A stretch of 64,000 nt of DNA from Actinomycetota bacterium (GCA_014360655.1 JACIXC010000008.1:1-64000), one strand, 5' to 3'; positions 24,407 to 34,278 are shown, counted from the first letter of the stretch. A program made the numbers and translations. Notes: a model not told the origin generated them from the letters alone.

Positions 24407-24482
24407 GCGGGTCTAGCTCAGTTGGCAGAGCGCGAGCTTCCCAAGCTCGAGGCCGCGGGTTCGATCCCCGTGACCCGCTCCA
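24407..24482 (+). tRNA. tRNA-Gly (anticodon CCC)
   Basis: 76 bases including an encoded CCA. The acceptor stem GCGGGTC pairs with GACCCGC, the D-arm is GCTC...GAGC, the anticodon stem CGAGC/GCTCG holds loop TTCCCAA with anticodon CCC at 24440-24442, and the T-arm contains the GTTCGATCC loop. It reads GGG glycine codons. An extended -10 promoter and a strong terminator flank it, so it is a single transcription unit. Confidence 0.97.
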
Positions 24483-24490
24483 GAAGAGCG

Positions 24491-24518
24491 AGCCGGAGGC
24501 AGGACCTCCGGCTTTTTT
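24491..24518 (+). terminator. Rho-independent terminator after tRNA-Gly
   Basis: AGCCGGAGG pairs with CCTCCGGCT around a five-base loop, followed by six T residues. Confidence 0.9.
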
Positions 24519-24682
24519 CAACCCCGTTCCATCGCGAGGCGCTCCCCGCTTCGGGGTCGCTCCCGCGTGCGCCGCAAGACGGAGCTGCGCGCGGGAAAGG
24601 GGAACGCCCGGACCGTTTTATCTATCGGTGCGAGGGTTTAGGAGCGCCGTGGCCGGCGGAACGCTTCCCGACCGGCGTGTTA

Positions 24683-27133
24683 CTACCCGTGCCTCCGCCC
24701 GAAGGCCCTCCAGCCTTCATTTACCAATGTCCGTAACCCTTTCATCAACAGGTCGTGGCAGCGGCGTCTCCACGTTCCGGTAGGCAGCAGCCTATCGACC
24801 GCGCGCTGGTACCTGCCGGCGAGCCGTATCACCATGCGCCCCTCCATATGCCGTATGATGTTCTCCAGGGCCGCGATGCGCATGTCGCGCTCCACGATCT
24901 GCTCCACCCTCACCTCAAGGTCGTAGTCGAGCTGCCCCACCTGGGCGTTGAGTTCACCTATCCTGGCGTGGAGCTCCGCGATCCGTTCCTCCCCGGCATG
25001 GAGGGAGTCGGTCAGCTCCGCTATGCGCCTCTCTTTTTCCGCCAGGGAACTCCCTAGCTTTATTACCAGGGAAGTGATCAGGGGGTCCCCGGCGGCAGCC
25101 ACCCGCCGCAGGGCCTCGAAGAAGGTCTTTCCGTCGCGGGCAAAGGCCGCTTGCGGAGTCTCGCCTGCCCGTTCGTCCTTCAATCTCCTCAGCAACCCGT
25201 AGATCCTGCCGCCGTATTCCTCCCTGGTGAAAGTGCGGGAGGCGAAAGCAAAGCCGTTCTCGCCGAGCCTCCTCGCTTCCTCCGGGTTGTCGGCGAGGTA
25301 GGCGATGTGCGCGGCGAGCCGGCGGTGGTCCCCGGGCGCGTAGAGCAGACCGTTGAACCCGTCCCGCACCAATTCGAGCGTTCCGCCTGCCGAGGTGGCG
25401 ATGACGGGCTTTTTCAGGAGCATCCCCTCGATGATCGACCGGCCGAAGGCCTCGTGCCTGCCGCAGGAAAGCACGATGTCCGCCTGGTCCAGGAAAGGAT
25501 AGGGATTCTCCCGAAAGGCGACGAACTTGACATATTTTTCCAGACCCTCCTCCTCGACCATCTTCTTCAGGTTCGCCGCGTATTCCGAAACGCAGTGGCC
25601 CATGATCGCCAGTTCCACGTCCCTGCCGCAGTGCACCAGCTCCCTGACGGCCAGGACGGCATCCCTCTGGCCCTTCTGTTCGTACACGGCGCCGGCCACC
25701 ATCAGCCTGGTGGCGCCCTCCCTCTCGAAGCAGGTCCCCTCGTGCCCTTCGAGGGCGCCTGCGGGTATCTCGACCCGGCTATACACGGTCAGCACTTTCC
25801 CGTTGCCGTCGTCCGGGAAGAGCTCCTTCCTGATGAAATGCGAGTTCACCACGATGGCCGAGGAGGATTGCTCGATGAAGCGGGCGGTTTCGTCGGGAGG
25901 CAGGGGTGCTTTCAGGGGCTGGCCGCGGTCACCGAGTTCGCGGACGAACCAGGCATGCGGTTTGCCGAGGAGGGAGGCGGCAAAGGCGCCCCAGGGTATG
26001 AGCGTGGTGAAGGTGGCGATCACATCCGGATCGACCTTGCGCAGCGCTCGTTCGATGAGGTAGGCGACTTCGCCCGCGCTGTCGACGTAAAGGGCCTCTT
26101 TCCGCGCGGGAGGCATGGCCTCCGGTTTCCACCACCACGAATAGCCGGCCTTGACGACGGAAGCCCCCGCCCGCGCCATCTTTTCCGGAAGCGGGCCGTT
26201 TCCGGGAATGACCACGGTGCACAGCGCCCCGTGATCCTCGACCAACTCGCTGACCAGCTCCAGGAGGCTCCTCTCCGCCCCGCCGAGGTCGGAGGAATGG
26301 GAGAAGAAGCAGACGCTCAGGGATCTTTCCTTCTTCAGGCAGAGGAGGTTGATATAGGCCATCTCGTCGCCCCCGGGCAGGTATTCGGACCAGCGGTCGA
26401 AGCGGTCCTCCGCGACGCGGTAGGTCATCCCGTTGCGCTCGTCGACGGCGTGCATCTCGAACCCGAGCGCGCTTATCTCTTCCAGGAACCGTTCCGGCTC
26501 GTAGCCCGCTTTTCGCAGGCACTTCGGATTGAACTCCACCAGGAGTTTGACCTCCGCGTTTTTCTCCAGGAGCCCCTTCATGCCCCTGATGACGAAGGGC
26601 TCGTGCCCGTCCGTGTCTATCTTGATGAACACGGGCGCCGCGGGCGGAAGGTCGAGAAAAGCGTCCAGCCTTGTCGTCCTTACCTCGATCTCCCTTACCG
26701 TGCGGGTCAGGGGGTGGTCATGGAACCCGCAGGAGTCCGAGGCCTCCTTTATCTTGAACTTCCTCCACCCCTCGCAGTCGGATACGGCGAGGTTGTGCGT
26801 TTCCACGTTTGCGAGCCCGTTGAGGGCCACGTTCCGCTCCAGCACGGCGTGATTCTCGGGCACCGGCTCCAGGGCGATGATCCTGCATCCGGGGCATGCC
26901 GTTCCCACCAGGAGGGTGTAGTAGCCGTAGTGGGCCCCCACGTCGACGAAGAGCATGCCTTCCCGCATGTGATGGAGCAGCAGTTCGCAGGAGAAGCCCT
27001 CGAAGGGTTTTTCGTAATAATGCTCTATGAACCTGGGGGTTATCAGCATCTGGAAATCCCTGCCTCTCGGGGTTATCGCCGTTAACCTTTCCAGGTCGTA
27101 ATCGTAGCGGAAAGGCGAGCCGTTTTCTTCCAT
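24683..27133 (-). CDS. FkbM methyltransferase - GT4 glycosyltransferase - coiled-coil fusion
   Basis: About 816 residues. Residues about 50-250 are an FkbM-type SAM methyltransferase (LFVDVGAHYGYYTLLVG; ALEPVPENHAVLERNVALNG; FIKIDTDGHEPFV). Residues about 270-640 are a GT-B, GT4-family glycosyltransferase (SSDLGGAERSLLELV; R-H-E-A-F-G-R-S-I-I-E-G-M; G-G-T-L-E-L-V). Residues about 695-765 form a heptad-rich coiled coil, and the tail is basic. It should glycosylate and O-methylate one surface glycan or lipid. I prefer the ATG at 27133 (AAGGTGATC upstream) to a GTG at 27157. It lies downstream of the asparagine-synthetase-like and MDR genes on the same strand. Confidence 0.87.
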   Translation of the reverse strand: MEENGSPFRYDYDLERLTAITPRGRDFQMLITPRFIEHYYEKPFEGFSCELLLHHMREGMLFVDVGAHYGYYTLLVGTACPGCRIIALEPVPENHAVLERNVALNGLANVETHNLAVSDCEGWRKFKIKEASDSCGFHDHPLTRTVREIEVRTTRLDAFLDLPPAAPVFIKIDTDGHEPFVIRGMKGLLEKNAEVKLLVEFNPKCLRKAGYEPERFLEEISALGFEMHAVDERNGMTYRVAEDRFDRWSEYLPGGDEMAYINLLCLKKERSLSVCFFSHSSDLGGAERSLLELVSELVEDHGALCTVVIPGNGPLPEKMARAGASVVKAGYSWWWKPEAMPPARKEALYVDSAGEVAYLIERALRKVDPDVIATFTTLIPWGAFAASLLGKPHAWFVRELGDRGQPLKAPLPPDETARFIEQSSSAIVVNSHFIRKELFPDDGNGKVLTVYSRVEIPAGALEGHEGTCFEREGATRLMVAGAVYEQKGQRDAVLAVRELVHCGRDVELAIMGHCVSEYAANLKKMVEEEGLEKYVKFVAFRENPYPFLDQADIVLSCGRHEAFGRSIIEGMLLKKPVIATSAGGTLELVRDGFNGLLYAPGDHRRLAAHIAYLADNPEEARRLGENGFAFASRTFTREEYGGRIYGLLRRLKDERAGETPQAAFARDGKTFFEALRRVAAAGDPLITSLVIKLGSSLAEKERRIAELTDSLHAGEERIAELHARIGELNAQVGQLDYDLEVRVEQIVERDMRIAALENIIRHMEGRMVIRLAGRYQRAVDRLLPTGTWRRRCHDLLMKGLRTLVNEGWRAFGRRHG

Positions 27134-27238
27134 CCCGATCACCTTAAGTCCATTCACAGGGCTTAATTATGGCGAAAGAGCGCATGTTTATCAATGCGCG
27201 TGACCTCGCGTGACCTTGCGGCCGAGGTGCATCCCTTA

Positions 27239-29140
27239 TCACTTACTCCCGTATTCCTTGTGCCACCGGCCGAAGGTGAGCAGCAGGAAGAGAATCTCGC
27301 TGTAATCCGCTTTACCTTCCATGTGCTCATGGAAAACAGCCCTGATGCGGTCCAGGTTGAACAGGCGAGGGTCCAGGCATTCCTCGTCCTCTATGGTCGC
27401 CAGCATCAGGTCGCTCAGCTTCCGGTTGTGGCGGATCAGCTCCGGGTAGTTGGGCCATGACCCGGTGGAGAACGCGGGGTGAGGCGCGGGCACGGGCTTG
27501 AAGAGGTGCTTTCTTGCCGTGGGTTCCAGCGCCAGCAGTAACGATTCGAGCCGTGGCGGGGTGGCCGCGGGCAGTCCCGTGTTGGCGTTGGTGGCTATTG
27601 CGGTTCTCCACGAGATCCTGGGCAGGATGCCCTTTATCAACCGGTTTCCCACCATCAGGCCCGTGGGCACGGAGAGCGCCAGGTCGACGAGGTCGTTGTC
27701 GAAGGACACCGTCCTCTCGTCCATGTGAGCGCGATTGTGGATGATGTGAAAGTGATCGCCGAACTGGCGGGCGTCAAGGATGCCGGAAAGGTAGGCGGGC
27801 GTCTTGCGGGCCTCACGGATGATCTCCGGCGCGATGGGGTTATTGTATTGTGACTCCACGGAGGCCAGCATGAGCTCGGTCACCTCCCGTGCGGACATGT
27901 TGAAGATGTTCCGGCTGATCTCGATCATGCTGTAGCCCAGGATGTTCCATATCATCTCATCCGGGGATACGTCTTCGTGGATGTCGGCGACGGGGATGGT
28001 CACGGAATGGCCCAAGAGGGTGCGCTGCTTCAGGGGCACGAGATATGCCTTGAACAACCATCCGAAAGCGACCCCGTGCAGGAGGATATCGGCATGTTCG
28101 CGCATGGTTTCGAAATAGCCCAGGTTGTGGGCGTGGTTACAGGAATACATGCCGTCGCCGATGGCCACCGCCCCCGGCACCATCCTCAGGTAGTGGTCGA
28201 GGTCCCTCCAGAGTATGACGTGTCGGCACCCGTACCCTGCGGCGAGCCTGCGGGCCACCTTCAACTCCCGGTTGGGGTGATCGGCTATGGTGAAAGCGGT
28301 GGCGATCTTCCCCCTCCCCGCCGCGTAAAGCACCGTCCTCGAGTCCAGCCCCCCGCTCAGGAGGATCCCCAGGCGGTGGCCGCCCCCGGTCCTTCTCTCC
28401 ACCGCCTTTTTCATGGCCTCGGCGAAGGCGTGGATGTAGTGGCGTTTAGTCCTGAACTCGTCTTTCCGCTCCCAGTTCCAGTAGCGACTCACCCGGGGCT
28501 GGCCGTGCTCGAGGCAGAGGACGCTCGCCGCCGGGAGGGAGCTCACGGATCGGTAGAAGGTACGATATCCCAGGATCTTCCTGAAGGTGAAGAACTCGCA
28601 GACCGCCTGCAGGTCAATTTCGCGGGAAAGGCCCGGGAACCTGAGCAGGGGCCGCACCTGGCTACCGAAGACCAGGTCCCTTCCATTCCAGTGGTAATAA
28701 ACGGGGCGCGAGTTGACGCGGTCGGTGGCCAGCACCAGTTTTCCCGAGTCCACGTGGTAGAGGGCGACGAGGAACGAGCCGTTGAGCTCGCGGAAGGCCT
28801 CGAGCCCCTCCTGCTCGTAGAGATGGAGAACGTACTCGGCGTCGTTGTCCGGGTAGCGGAAACGGTGGCCCTGCCGGGAGAGCCGTTGTTTACCGGACTG
28901 GTAGTCGAAGACCTCACCGTCCATGAAGACGAGGATGGACCCATCCTCGTTGCGCAGGGGCTGCGGTTGCGGGTTCAGGATCCCGTGATGTACACGCGAG
29001 ACGGCCGCTTGCTCTTCCACCCAGAGGTCCACGGGCTCTTCCCCGGTGTATGAGATGTCGCCGGCCATGGCCTTGAGAAGCCGCTCGCCGCGCTCCCGCT
29101 CCAATGTATCACTGGTAAATAATCCCACCAATCCCGCCAC
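27239..29140 (-). CDS. Asparagine-synthetase-like amidotransferase lacking the glutaminase Cys
   Basis: 633 residues. The N-terminal class II glutaminase domain is recognisable, but the sequence begins M-A-G-L-V-G where active AsnB starts M-C-G; position 2 is Ala, so glutamine hydrolysis is lost. The ATP-binding SGGLDS motif is intact at residues 262-267, with M-D-E-R and D-N-D-L-V-D helices behind it. It may use free ammonia or another amine to make an amide or cyclise a substrate, as beta-lactam synthetase does. The GTG start at 29140 has GGGAGG eight bases upstream. The neighbours suggest modification of a surface sugar or acid. Confidence 0.85.
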   Translation of the reverse strand: MAGLVGLFTSDTLERERGERLLKAMAGDISYTGEEPVDLWVEEQAAVSRVHHGILNPQPQPLRNEDGSILVFMDGEVFDYQSGKQRLSRQGHRFRYPDNDAEYVLHLYEQEGLEAFRELNGSFLVALYHVDSGKLVLATDRVNSRPVYYHWNGRDLVFGSQVRPLLRFPGLSREIDLQAVCEFFTFRKILGYRTFYRSVSSLPAASVLCLEHGQPRVSRYWNWERKDEFRTKRHYIHAFAEAMKKAVERRTGGGHRLGILLSGGLDSRTVLYAAGRGKIATAFTIADHPNRELKVARRLAAGYGCRHVILWRDLDHYLRMVPGAVAIGDGMYSCNHAHNLGYFETMREHADILLHGVAFGWLFKAYLVPLKQRTLLGHSVTIPVADIHEDVSPDEMIWNILGYSMIEISRNIFNMSAREVTELMLASVESQYNNPIAPEIIREARKTPAYLSGILDARQFGDHFHIIHNRAHMDERTVSFDNDLVDLALSVPTGLMVGNRLIKGILPRISWRTAIATNANTGLPAATPPRLESLLLALEPTARKHLFKPVPAPHPAFSTGSWPNYPELIRHNRKLSDLMLATIEDEECLDPRLFNLDRIRAVFHEHMEGKADYSEILFLLLTFGRWHKEYGSK

Positions 29141-29180
29141 GCCTCGCCCCTCCCGTGACCCGGGTCGCCCCCCTTGGCGC

Positions 29181-30398
29181 TCAGGGGACGAAGGCGATCT
29201 TCACCGCGTGGTGCTTCCCCTTGTTCAGGGCCGCATCCAGGGCCTGGTGGTACTGGTCGAGGCGGAACCTGTGGGTCACCAGGCGGGAGAGGTCGATCTT
29301 CCCCTCCTCCATGAGCCGGATGGCGATCTCGAAGTCGAACGCGGTGGCCCCCTGCCAGGTGTCGCGCTGGGATCCATAGATCCCCCTTATGGTGAGCTCC
29401 TTCAGCCACACGGGGGTCCAGTCGACCCTCCCGATGGGAGCGATACCCAGCAGGTTGTAGGCGCCCCCGTTGGCGAGGATACGGAAGGAGGCCTGCACGG
29501 TGCGCGTGTTGCCCACGGCGTCGAAGACGCGGTCCACGCCTCCTATGAGCAGAGGGTCCGCCGCCAGGGGGGTGTGCATCTTGGCCCCGGTGAGCTCGGC
29601 GACCCTGCGGTAGAACTGCCTGCCGCCGGGCTTGATGACCTCCTCCGCCCCCAGCTCCCGCGCCAGCCCGGCATGGAAGGGGTCCGGCTCCACCGCCAGC
29701 ACGCGGTTTTCCGGGTGCAGGGCCTTGAGTGCGGCGAGGGTGCACAGGCCCATCACCCCGCACCCGAAGACCAGAAGCGTCTCGCCGGGCTGGATGTCGT
29801 TGGCGAGGACCATGTGCAGGCAGGTGGAAAAGGGCTCCACCATGACCACGTTCTCGTCGCTCAGGTTTTCGGGCACCTTGACCAGGTTGTGCTGCGGAGC
29901 GACGCTCATCTCGCTGATGAAGCCGGGAACGTCGGCGTTGGAACCGGCGAACATCCCCGGGGCGAACCTGCCCTCGGTGAAGTTCTCGCACAGCTGCGGT
30001 CTTCCCTGGGCGCACATGCGACACGGCGGATGGATACCTCTTTCGCGGCAAGCGAGCCAGGGGATCACCGCCACCCGCTCCCCCGGAGAAAAACCCTCGA
30101 CCCCGGGTCCGAGCTCCGCCACTTCCCCGCACACCTCGTGGCCGAGCACGAAGGGATAGGAGGCGAAGGGCTGGAGGGTGAGGCTCTCGTGGCACCTGAT
30201 GATGCTGAGGTCGCTCCCGCAAAGGCCCGCCAGGCGGGGCCTGATCTTCACCCAGTCCGGCCCGGGAAGCTCCGGCTCGGGGGCCTCCCGCAACTGCACC
30301 GGGGCCAGGCCGCTGAAGAGCACCCGGGGCATGCGGTCGGCGAGTGCCCCCGTGACCAGGTAGCGGGGGATGCTGTACTCGAAAGTCAGCGCCTTCAT
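29181..30398 (-). CDS. Zinc-dependent medium-chain dehydrogenase (MDR)
   Basis: 405 residues. Catalytic zinc ligands are Cys60 (LCGSD) and His87-Glu88 (GHE). The structural-zinc loop has Cys117, Cys126, Cys129 and Cys137 with unusually long spacing between the first two. The Rossmann motif V-F-G-C-G-V-M-G-L is present. It resembles threonine and sorbitol dehydrogenases; the substrate is probably a polyol or amino alcohol. GGAGG lies eight bases before the ATG. The asparagine-synthetase-like gene starts 40 bases after its stop, so the three genes 30398 to 24683 probably form an operon that could make or attach an unusual sugar. Confidence 0.9.
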   Translation of the reverse strand: MKALTFEYSIPRYLVTGALADRMPRVLFSGLAPVQLREAPEPELPGPDWVKIRPRLAGLCGSDLSIIRCHESLTLQPFASYPFVLGHEVCGEVAELGPGVEGFSPGERVAVIPWLACRERGIHPPCRMCAQGRPQLCENFTEGRFAPGMFAGSNADVPGFISEMSVAPQHNLVKVPENLSDENVVMVEPFSTCLHMVLANDIQPGETLLVFGCGVMGLCTLAALKALHPENRVLAVEPDPFHAGLARELGAEEVIKPGGRQFYRRVAELTGAKMHTPLAADPLLIGGVDRVFDAVGNTRTVQASFRILANGGAYNLLGIAPIGRVDWTPVWLKELTIRGIYGSQRDTWQGATAFDFEIAIRLMEEGKIDLSRLVTHRFRLDQYHQALDAALNKGKHHAVKIAFVP

Positions 30399-30780: not shown

Positions 30781-31632
30781 TCAGGGTCGGGCGCCGAAGA
30801 AGCGGTGGATGATCCCCTTCCTCCACAGGAAGCGGAAGAGGTGGTGGTAGAGCTGCGGCGAGACCCTCTTCAGCAGGTACTGGGGGCCACTGTGGGACCA
30901 GGGAACCACGGTGATCCCGATGTCCTTCTCCAGGGCGCGCAGGCCGGCGGCGGCCACCACGGCGGGGTCCACTCCCCTGGTGGCGTAGAACTTCTCGATC
31001 TCCGGCCGGGTGCTCCTGCCCGTGGAGTTGTACAGGTAGATCCTGCCATCCCTGATGATGTTGGTGTTGATGAACCCCGGGCAGAGGAGGCTCACCTTGA
31101 TGCCGTGCTCGTAGAGCTCCATGCGCAGCGTCTCCCCCAGCCCCACCACCCCGTACTTGCTGGTCTGGTAGGCGGCCATGCCGGGAATGGCCACCAGGCC
31201 GGCGTCGCTGGCAGTGAGGAGGATGGAACCGCCCTTGCGCTCGATCATGTGCGGGACGAAGGCGTGCAGGGTGTAGATGGCGCCCCACAGGTTTATCCCC
31301 AGCACCCATTCCCAGTCCTCGAGGGAGGTCTCCACGAAGCGTCCTCCCATGCCCACGCCCGCGTTGCTGCACAGGATGTCCACGTGGTCCCAGTCGGCGA
31401 GGAACCTCCCGGCGAACCTCTCCACCTCCTCCCGCCTGGAGTGGTCAACCCGGTAGCCGCGCGCCGCCGCGCCCTTCGCCTTCAGCTCCTCCACCACCTG
31501 CCCGATGCGCTCGGGCACGATGTCGGTTATGGCCACGCGGCATCCCGCCTCCGCCAGGGCGTGCGCCAGGGCCCTGCCGATGCCGGAACCCCCGCCCGTG
31601 ACCACGGCCGTCTTCCCCTCGAAAAAGCCCAT
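30781..31632 (-). CDS. Short-chain dehydrogenase/reductase (SDR)
   Basis: 283 residues. The cofactor motif is T-G-G-G-S-G-I-G at residues 12-19, with the N-A-G motif at 90-92 and the catalytic triad Ser142, Tyr155 and Lys159 (YQTSK). Asp37 after the second strand (A-I-T-D-I) suggests NAD rather than NADP. The C-terminal 40 residues are basic and aromatic (Y-H-H-L-F-R-F-L-W-R-K), perhaps membrane-touching. GGAGG lies eight bases before the ATG at 31632. The substrate is unknown. Confidence 0.9.
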   Translation of the reverse strand: MGFFEGKTAVVTGGGSGIGRALAHALAEAGCRVAITDIVPERIGQVVEELKAKGAAARGYRVDHSRREEVERFAGRFLADWDHVDILCSNAGVGMGGRFVETSLEDWEWVLGINLWGAIYTLHAFVPHMIERKGGSILLTASDAGLVAIPGMAAYQTSKYGVVGLGETLRMELYEHGIKVSLLCPGFINTNIIRDGRIYLYNSTGRSTRPEIEKFYATRGVDPAVVAAAGLRALEKDIGITVVPWSHSGPQYLLKRVSPQLYHHLFRFLWRKGIIHRFFGARP

Positions 31633-31840
31633 CACGCGCACCTCCTTACTCTTGCCGGACCATCCGCCCATTACCATATCACACCGCCCGAACACAAGTG
31701 GTAGGGCACGGGTTCCAGGGCACGTCCTGCGCCCGTTCGGTCTCCGCCATTGCGAGGAGGCGCGCAAGCGCCCGGCACCCGTCATTGCGAGGAGGCGCGC
31801 TCCAAGGATGTCATCGCGATGAAGCCCGTCCTGAGAATGT

Positions 31841-31965
31841 CATTGCGAGGAGGCGCGCAAGCGCCGACGAAGCGATCTCCCCGGGAGGAGGGAAGGAGCA
31901 CGGGCACCGGGAGGGCGGTAGTGGACGGAGGAGATCGCTTCGTCGCTCCGCTCCTCGCGATGACG
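31841..31965. repeat. Palindromic element copy 1
   Basis: CATTGCGAGGAGG to CGCGATGACG. The arms GAAGCGATCTCC and GGAGATCGCTTC pair around a 51-bp centre. This copy reads CGCTCCGCTCC where the others read CGCTTCGCTCC. Confidence 0.85.
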
Positions 31966-32055
31966 TTTAATGGGGGTCCTTGCCATGACGGTTCGAGGGA
32001 GCTCCTCGCGACGGCGTTTAAGAGGGGTTCCTCGTGGTGACGTTCCGGCACCCGC

Positions 32056-32180
32056 CATTGCGAGGAGGCGCGCAAGCGCCGACGAAGCGATCTCCCCGGG
32101 AGGAGGGAAGGAGCCCGGGCACCGGGAGGGCGGTAGTGGACGGAGGAGATCGCTTCGTCGCTTCGCTCCTCGCGACGGCG
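32056..32180. repeat. Palindromic element copy 2
   Basis: Same 125-bp element; the centre has GAGCCCGGGC where the other copies have GAGCACGGGC. Confidence 0.85.
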
Positions 32181-32465
32181 TTTAATAGGGGTCCTTGCCA
32201 TGACGGTTCGAGGAAGTTCCTCGCGATGGCGTTTAATGGGGGCCCTTGCCATGACGGTTCGAGGAAGTTCCTCGCGATGACGTTTCGGGGAGCTGCTTGC
32301 CATGACGGTTCGAGGGAGCTCCTCGCGACGGCGTTTAAGAGGGGTTCCTCGTGGTGACGTTCCGGCACCCGTCATTGCGAGGAGGCGCGCTCCAAGGATG
32401 TCATCGCGATGAAGCCCGTCCTGAGAATGTCATTGCGAGGAGGCGCGCGGGCGCCCGGCACCCGT

Positions 32466-32590
32466 CATTGCGAGGAGGCGCGCAAGCGCCGACGAAGCGA
32501 TCTCCCCGGGAGGAGGGAAGGAGCACGGGCACCGGGAGGGCGGTAGTGGACGGAGGAGATCGCTTCGTCGCTTCGCTCCTCGCGACGGCG
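32466..32590. repeat. Palindromic element copy 3
   Basis: Same 125-bp element, ending CGCGACGGCG like copy 2. Confidence 0.85.
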
Positions 32591-32910
32591 TTTAATAGGG
32601 GTCCTTGCCATGACGGTTCGAGGAAGTTCCTCGCGATGGCGTTTCGGGGAGCTGCTTGCCATGACGGTTCGAGGGATCTCCTCGCGATGGCGTTTCGGGG
32701 AGCTGCTTGCCATGACGGTTCGAGGGAGCTCCTCGCGACGGCGTTTAAGAGGGGTTCCTCGTGGTGACGTTCCGGCACCCGTCATTGCGAGGAGGCGCGC
32801 GGGCGCCCGGCACCCGTCATTGCGAGGAGGCGCGCTCCAAGGATGTCATCGCGATGAAGCCCGTCCTGAGAATGTCATTGCGAGGAGGCGCGCAAGCGCC
32901 CGGCACCCGT

Positions 32911-33035
32911 CATTGCGAGGAGGCGCGCAAGCGCCGACGAAGCGATCTCCCCGGGAGGAGGGAAGGAGCACGGGCACCGGGAGGGCGGTAGTGGACGGAG
33001 GAGATCGCTTCGTCGCTTCGCTCCTCGCGATGACG
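32911..33035. repeat. Palindromic element copy 4
   Basis: Same 125-bp element, ending CGCGATGACG like copy 1. Confidence 0.85.
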
Positions 33036-33336
33036 TCTAATGGGGGTCCTTGCCATGACGGTTCGAGGAAGTTCCTCGCGATGACGTTTAATGGGGGTCC
33101 TTGCCATGACGGTTCGAGGGAGCTCCTCGCGATGGCGTTTCGAGGGAGCTGCTCGCGCAACGAGCGGGCTCAGGCAACGGGGTGTTGCCAAACGTTGCTT
33201 TGATCCACGTCCTCGCTCCTTAGCCATACGGTTGGCGCTGCGCTATAATATTCACGCGGTTATGGAAAGAAAGCGGTTATGGAAAGAGGGAAGAAGAACA
33301 GCGCCGGCACAGGCAGGAAAGAGGAGGAACCAGGAA

Positions 33337-34278
33337 ATGAAGCACACCAAGACGGCAGCGATAGTGATCGGTGCCTTCGCCGTCGCCCTCGTCCTCTCCC
33401 TGGGGGGCTGCGCCGTGAACGGCGGGGGGAAGGAATACCGGGATCCGTCCGTTCCCATCGTGGTGGAAAAGGGAGAGGAGTTCACCATCGCGCTGGAGTC
33501 CAACCCCACCACCGGCTACCGCTGGATGCTGCAGAAGGAGCTGGACGAGAAGATAATCACCCTCCAGAAAACGGAGTTCGAGGAGCCGGAGTCCAACCTC
33601 CTGGGCGCCCCCGGTGAGGAGAGGTGGATCTTCAAGGCGGTGGGCCTGGGGCGCACAACCATCGAGCTCAAGTACGCGCGGCCCTGGGAGGAGGAAAGCC
33701 CATCGCCGGCCTTGGGAGAAGAAGAGGCGGGCACGGCGGAAGAGGGCGGCGCCGCGGAAGGCGGCGCTACAACCCATGCCGGGGAAGCGGCGGGAAGATC
33801 CACCGGCGAGGCCGGTGGGGAAGCCACCACCGACGTGGAGACGGGCAGCGTGGAGGCCGGCGCGGAAGCCGAGACCCTGGTCTTCTCCGTCTGGGTGAAG
33901 AAGAAGGGTGCGACGGACAAGGAGCCCAAGGAATACGACAACCCCGACGAGGCCATCGAGGTCGAGGAGGGGCTCGAGTTCGCCATCGTCCTGGAGTCCA
34001 ACCCCACCACCGGCTACCAGTGGCAGCTCGCGGAGCCCCTGGACGGGGAGATCCTTTCCCTGGTGAGCGCGACCTTCGAGAGCAAGGGCGGCGGAGAAGG
34101 AGAGGAAAGAGTAGGAGCCCCCGGGGAGGAGGTATGGACCTTCGAGGCGGTGGGTCCGGGGAAGGCCGAGATAACCCTGGCCTACGCGCGGCCCTGGGAG
34201 AAGGAGGCGGCGCCCGAGGAGACCAAGACCTTCCATGTGGAGGTGAAGGCCGTAGGGGAGGAGGCCGCGGAGCACTAG
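33337..34278 (+). CDS. Lipoprotein with two chagasin-type (I42) protease-inhibitor domains
   Basis: 313 residues. A signal peptide ends in a lipobox (SLGGC, Cys25), so the protein is anchored by lipid. Two copies of the chagasin/ICP fold follow, about residues 40-125 and 200-300. Each has the inhibitory NPTTGY loop (57-61 and about 222-226) and the ARPW loop. They are joined by an Ala/Glu/Gly-rich linker of about 60 residues. Chagasins block papain-type cysteine proteases. The ATG at 33337 has GGAGG nine bases upstream, and TATAAT lies at 33244. The gene follows the palindrome array directly. Confidence 0.9.
   Translation: MKHTKTAAIVIGAFAVALVLSLGGCAVNGGGKEYRDPSVPIVVEKGEEFTIALESNPTTGYRWMLQKELDEKIITLQKTEFEEPESNLLGAPGEERWIFKAVGLGRTTIELKYARPWEEESPSPALGEEEAGTAEEGGAAEGGATTHAGEAAGRSTGEAGGEATTDVETGSVEAGAEAETLVFSVWVKKKGATDKEPKEYDNPDEAIEVEEGLEFAIVLESNPTTGYQWQLAEPLDGEILSLVSATFESKGGGEGEERVGAPGEEVWTFEAVGPGKAEITLAYARPWEKEAAPEETKTFHVEVKAVGEEAAEH

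Follow-up and report, generated by a model that had tools for sequence, protein, structure and literature searches.

A fused FkbM-GT4-coiled-coil protein and a Cys-less asparagine-synthetase-like protein beside redox genes in an actinobacterial locus

Do neighbouring genes that could be arranged into one pathway also form one? This question is raised by an interval of Actinomycetota DNA (GCA_014360655.1 JACIXC010000008.1:1-64000; the 64,000-nucleotide stretch that was analysed is called here the window). Three open reading frames of the same strand, at 24683-27157, 27239-29140 and 29181-30398, had been described in the first-pass annotation as a surface-glycan cluster, in which a dehydrogenase (MDR) would oxidise a sugar, a Cys-less asparagine-synthetase-like protein (AsnL) would amidate it, and a polypeptide joining a SAM methyltransferase, a GT-B glycosyltransferase and a long coiled coil would add it to a glycan and methylate it. 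We recovered the three frames and the fused protein, and domain parsing by Pfam and NCBIfam agrees with that description. On the minus strand, in the direction of transcription, an SDR gene ending at 30781 is followed by MDR (30398-29181), AsnL (29140-27239) and the fused gene, FkbM-GT4-CC (27133-24683). The genome itself is 2.97 Mb long and nearly complete, and its family includes one recorded as Candidatus Solincola daggyaiensis, which we take to be a Geothermincolia-type actinobacterium. Two of the three genes do look like glycan tools, but the word cluster overstates the case, as the other nearby genes scanned (OYE, TPR, NifS-like and SDR) include no glycan gene, and no polymerase, flippase or transporter was found adjoining the AsnL/FkbM-GT pair. 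A literature search on FkbM together with asparagine synthase gave nothing relevant.

Several features border the interval. Beyond the SDR gene, positions 31744-33203 hold a MITE- or REP-like array of four direct repeats of about 300 bp, which match the reference copy at 70-96% and have inverted arms of 16 nt (CGACGAAGCGATCTCC and GGAGATCGCTTCGTCG). The product of a frame at 33337-34278 begins like a lipoprotein and has two I42 protease-inhibitor domains of the chagasin type. On the other side, a tRNA-Gly(CCC) gene at 24407-24482, convergent with the FkbM-GT gene, is directly followed by a terminator-like hairpin (whole span 24407-24519). This tRNA prompted the idea of a tRNA-anchored island, which no test supported and which we set aside.

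The three-gene set was sought in relatives, and its recurrence proved narrow. The sole other species of the genus examined (G004) keeps the order SDR-MDR-AsnL-FkbM/GT, with identities of 86, 86, 63 and 61%, so the three genes do co-occur outside the window; no further species with the set was seen. Relatives of AsnL were gathered by an alignment search of genome contigs, which yielded at least 80 loci and is a sample (a search with the single AsnL protein found none), and among these loci AsnL is accompanied by this MDR and the FkbM-GT fusion only in that of G004. With two species of a single genus, the support for any unit is weak.

The dehydrogenase (29181-30398, minus strand) carries the ADH_N and ADH_zinc_N domains of the MDR zinc enzymes and is present in 24 of the 31 class genomes; counterparts from the other families and orders are 61-75% identical to it. 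Around it, at 17 relatives' loci, no AsnL, FkbM or GT homologue was found. Its neighbours there are SDR and OYE genes, as identified by BLAST, and probable genes for enoyl-CoA hydratase, acyl-CoA dehydrogenase and ThDP enzymes, as read by eye from the gene starts. Because MDR is class-wide and lacks glycan genes at these 17 loci, it probably stands outside the glycan pathway, though adjacent to it, and the proposed oxidation of a sugar loses its footing. The SDR gene (30781-31635, minus strand; exact start uncertain, the frame reaching 31785) neighbours MDR in the window and in G004, and also in a further genome (G020), where other genes intervene.

Base composition changes along the same line. 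GC3 is 0.83 for both AsnL and FkbM-GT in comparison to 0.91 for MDR and 0.94 for SDR, and the same contrast is found in G004. The break, which sits between MDR and AsnL, is modest, since the GC3 of OYE is also 0.85. AsnL and FkbM-GT are under purifying selection (dN/dS approximately 0.35-0.40), and their evolutionary rates differ from those of the MDR/SDR side. The gap between MDR and AsnL measures 40 bp in the window and about 115 bp in G004; given the 40-bp gap and the order kept in both species, the two genes may still have some functional link.

AsnL (27239-29140, minus strand) carries a GATase_7 and an Asn_synthase domain (Pfam/NCBIfam). Its AF2 model is good (pLDDT 88.7) and matches TsnB9, AsnB and beta-lactam synthetase in the PDB over both domains, while its family scores fall below the cut-offs (155 bits vs 816.9 for TIGR03108 and 143.5 vs 267.1 for TIGR01536). 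The protein was rightly called Cys-less: its second residue is Ala, a reading fixed by the ribosome site GGGAGGGG that closely precedes the GTG at 29140, and the glutaminase Arg, RGPD and Asn are missing as well. The PP-loop (SGGxDS) is present as LSGGLDSR (28337-28360, residues 261-268), and the catalytic Glu of GEGxDE and the Lys are absent. In G004, 48 residues of the glutaminase domain (27-74, corresponding to 28919-29062) are missing in-frame between imperfect repeats, with a small chance that a metagenome assembly error is the cause; the rest of the protein is under purifying selection. Together, the lost glutaminase and synthetase residues and the missing 48 residues make amidation with glutamine-derived ammonia very unlikely, and the amidation step in its usual form has to be given up.

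Known members of the superfamily illustrate both sides of this protein. The XrtA/PEP-CTERM and EPS amidotransferases (TIGR03108) and AsnB (TIGR01536) share with AsnL the two-domain fold, the SGGxDS PP-loop and an occurrence in glycan loci; they differ from it in Cys2, RGPD, the GEGxDE motif and the conserved Lys, all missing from AsnL, which in turn has SGGxDSR. Beta-lactam synthetase, carbapenam synthetase and lasso-peptide cyclase belong to the same superfamily. Beta-lactam synthetase works without the glutaminase Cys, and both it and carbapenam synthetase use catalytic Glu/Lys residues, which AsnL does not keep. The identity of a lasso-peptide cyclase was considered and rejected, with no lasso precursor or partner genes next to AsnL.

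These results bear on the idea of one operon, in which MDR would oxidise a sugar, AsnL amidate it, GT4 add it and FkbM methylate it. The short MDR-AsnL gap and the order conserved in two species speak for such a pathway, as does the similar N-terminus of a canonical family of XrtA-type amidotransferases. However, an MDR that is class-wide and elsewhere in non-glycan surroundings, an AsnL devoid of Cys2, RGPD, the glutaminase Arg/Asn and the catalytic Glu and shortened in the sister species, and genes that differ in composition and evolutionary rate leave this pathway highly improbable. The reading that we favour, and consider reasonably probable, is that two units of separate origin meet in this interval: native SDR and MDR redox genes, and a probably acquired, compositionally distinct glycan cassette of AsnL and FkbM-GT4-CC.

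The origin of AsnL was addressed through its relatives. Among the matches listed, its nearest ones come from Neomarinimicrobiota (39%) and Bathyarchaeota (37%), while those of its own family reach 25-29%, which points to transfer between lineages. In a tree of 102 AsnL relatives (FastTree, with some long branches), 38 SGGxDSR proteins, two of them duplicates, are gathered on one side, where a single exception on a long branch sits among them; none of the 38 starts with Met-Cys among the matches listed. The columns of this clade were compared with those of 17 canonical proteins, which were chosen for Cys2 and SGEGxDE, so that these motifs are fixed there by construction. In this comparison the clade lacks the glutaminase Cys, Arg, RGPD and Asn. 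The equivalent of AsnB Glu348 is found in 0/36 members and that of Lys449 in one of 36 in this alignment, whose Lys column is less certain. SGGxDS is invariant in all 36 and is followed by a new invariant Arg, SGGxDSR replacing SGGxDSS, and of the window's PP-loop only residue 265 varies; D481 is kept in 34/36.

The clade occurs in bacteria and archaea, mostly in polysaccharide loci. Among the first neighbours of 32 members (115 proteins), GT1/GT4 domains were found in 32, GT2 in 11 and flippases in 6; in one locus (L065) a flippase lies directly upstream of the AsnL relative, and another (L066) is a glycan locus. AsnL proteins of this clade might be catalytically dead scaffolds or regulators of glycan enzymes, as the loss of the glutaminase Cys and of the Glu348 and Lys449 equivalents would suggest. 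The invariant SGGxDS, the new invariant Arg and the largely kept D481, on the other hand, suggest a constrained nucleotide site, and we regard a dead protein as a possibility on the doubtful side.

Further observations were made at the clade loci. In an Omnitrophota locus (L076:8037-11596) two FkbM genes lie directly upstream of an SGGxDSR AsnL, an FkbM-AsnL adjacency outside the genus. One type of methyltransferase was found near SGGxDSR AsnL in two Geothermincolia-type bacteria and one Bathyarchaeota archaeon (L041:8348-8965, L066:3150-3782 and L038:13957-14586) and in no locus without SGGxDSR among the matches listed. Eight loci (L106, L108, L111, L122, L126, L132, L135 and L141), the named ones mostly Verrucomicrobia-type, each encode a pair of asparagine-synthetase-like proteins separated by at most a few kb; one of the pair has SGGLDSG, and the other starts MPGI(V/A)GI and has no recognisable PP-loop.

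The second gene of the cassette (24683-27133, minus strand) encodes the fused protein. The frame reaches 27157 (824 codons), and its likely start is Met9 (27133), which would give 816 residues both in the window and in the full-length G004 counterpart (61% identical); Met9 is favoured because AAGGTG lies 6 nt upstream and the G004 protein starts at the same Met. A promoter-like site before the gene (27194-27166) is not conserved in G004, and the count of such sites is near chance. In the numbering of the longer frame, residues 72-234 (26456-26944) form an FkbM SAM-methyltransferase domain (TIGR01444, 95 bits vs a cut-off of 37.7; PF05050, 4e-16) with an intact motif I (VDVGAHYG; FVDVGAHYGYYT). 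The two GT-B halves follow at residues 292-447 and 483-635 (25253-26284; PF13579/PF13439 and PF00534, the latter at 1e-27), with the EX7E residues E569 and E577 of GT4 present in both species. These intact motifs, kept in G004, support the roles suggested for the protein in glycan addition and methylation.

The coiled coil predicted after these modules stands as well, but not its length: it spans about 100 residues, which is moderate. In each 56-residue stretch within residues 671-766 (816-residue numbering), the hydrophobic periodicity of 3.5 residues is stronger than in almost all shuffled sequences (p ≤ 0.004). The AF2 model of the fusion, built from two sequences and used for the helix alone, gives a single helix at residues 692-790 (24788-25084), broken at LLPTGT; it is poor overall (pLDDT 38) and reaches approximately 55-76 over most of the helix. 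The protein ends in a tail (residues 791-824, 24686-24787) of the form LPxGTxRR ... NEGW ... RR (LLPTGTWRRR...NEGWRAFGRR), also present in the G004 counterpart.

Is this fusion unique? Outside the genus, no full-length FkbM-GT4 fusion was found in 31 class genomes, 296 phylum genomes (where the best three candidates per genome were scored, so that weak fusions could escape), 31 genomes carrying AsnL relatives, 72,556 plasmids and 50,697 phages. Its parts do recur. The tail is found in a 1671-aa protein of G004 (L166:8089-13104), between a run of GT2, Methyltransf_24 and coiled coil and a run of RgpF and a HAD-like end. Two further actinobacterial families show it weakly, in proteins that by eye seem to bear GT2, one of them with an N-terminal methyltransferase. 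The gene of the 1671-aa protein adjoins pyruvate-dehydrogenase-like genes. A Methyltransf_11-GT4 fusion exists in G005, of the same family, and similar proteins are encoded by separate adjacent genes in the window's genome (L024:700-2793 and L170:14605-16539). Thus, methyltransferase-GT fusions and such tails are recurring kinds. Actinobacterial methyltransferase-coiled-coil-GT2 proteins (L174, L176 and the 1671-aa protein) resemble FkbM-GT4-CC in a coiled coil that leads into a P-x-G-[ST]-x-R-R tail, whether these stand between the catalytic modules or behind them; they differ in the modules, which are GT2, Methyltransf_24 and RgpF, and in the position of the tail, internal there and C-terminal here. 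FkbM-GT4-CC is a new module arrangement among known modular methyltransferase/glycosyltransferase/coiled-coil proteins.

The closest described proteins, by a likeness of topology, are WbdD of E. coli O9a and the coiled-coil terminators ORF6 of Klebsiella pneumoniae O7 and ORF7 of O4, in which the coiled coil acts as a molecular ruler (PMC3482155, PMC11231755). These have N-terminal catalytic modules and then a coiled coil in one polypeptide; WbdD and ORF6 also include a methyltransferase, and ORF6 joins GT modules. FkbM-GT4-CC differs in its FkbM-type methyltransferase, in the GT4 before the coiled coil, in having no kinase and in having no adjacent Wzm/Wzt or polymerase. A sharper form of our explanation would make it a chain terminator of the WbdD type, with GT4 adding a terminal sugar, FkbM methylating it, the coiled coil setting the length and a Wzm/Wzt-type exporter coded elsewhere. 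The order of catalytic modules, coiled coil and C-terminal tail resembles that of WbdD and the O4/O7 proteins, and a Wzt with a Wzt_C domain lies with an ABC2 membrane partner on another contig (C2) of the window's genome. Nevertheless, this exporter is unlinked, no polymerase is adjacent, the coiled coil has only about 100 residues, and no homology to WbdD is claimed; we see this sharper form as a tentative option.

Within the reading of two units, SDR and MDR would be native redox genes of a Geothermincolia-type actinobacterium, belonging in relatives to acyl-CoA/ThDP-type metabolism, and the probably acquired cassette may be read from the MDR operon. The FkbM-GT4 protein would act at the inner face of the membrane, where GT4 may extend a lipid-linked glycan by one sugar and FkbM may O-methylate that glycan end, so that the chain is decorated or capped. 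The coiled coil would oligomerise the protein, and the basic LPxGTxRR tail could tether it to the membrane or to a partner. AsnL would take no ammonia from glutamine; its fold and ATP-type PP-loop are kept. The same glycan is its most likely target, on which it would serve either as an altered, ATP-dependent ligase that uses a different nucleophile or as a partner without catalysis of its own.

More broadly, and only tentatively, the SGGxDSR clade may be an undescribed family of ATP-dependent enzymes that modify the surface glycans of bacteria and archaea, attaching to them something that is not ammonia from glutamine; in this genus its member would work with a fused sugar-adding, methylating coiled-coil enzyme. 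If this is right, it would be a mistake to take many of the 'asparagine synthase-related' proteins of glycan loci for sugar amidases. The clade has lost the glutaminase and the usual synthetase residues while keeping an ATP-type loop with a new invariant arginine, which makes the biochemical question testable, and the fusion would represent a further module order among the methyltransferase, glycosyltransferase and coiled-coil proteins that set polysaccharide ends.
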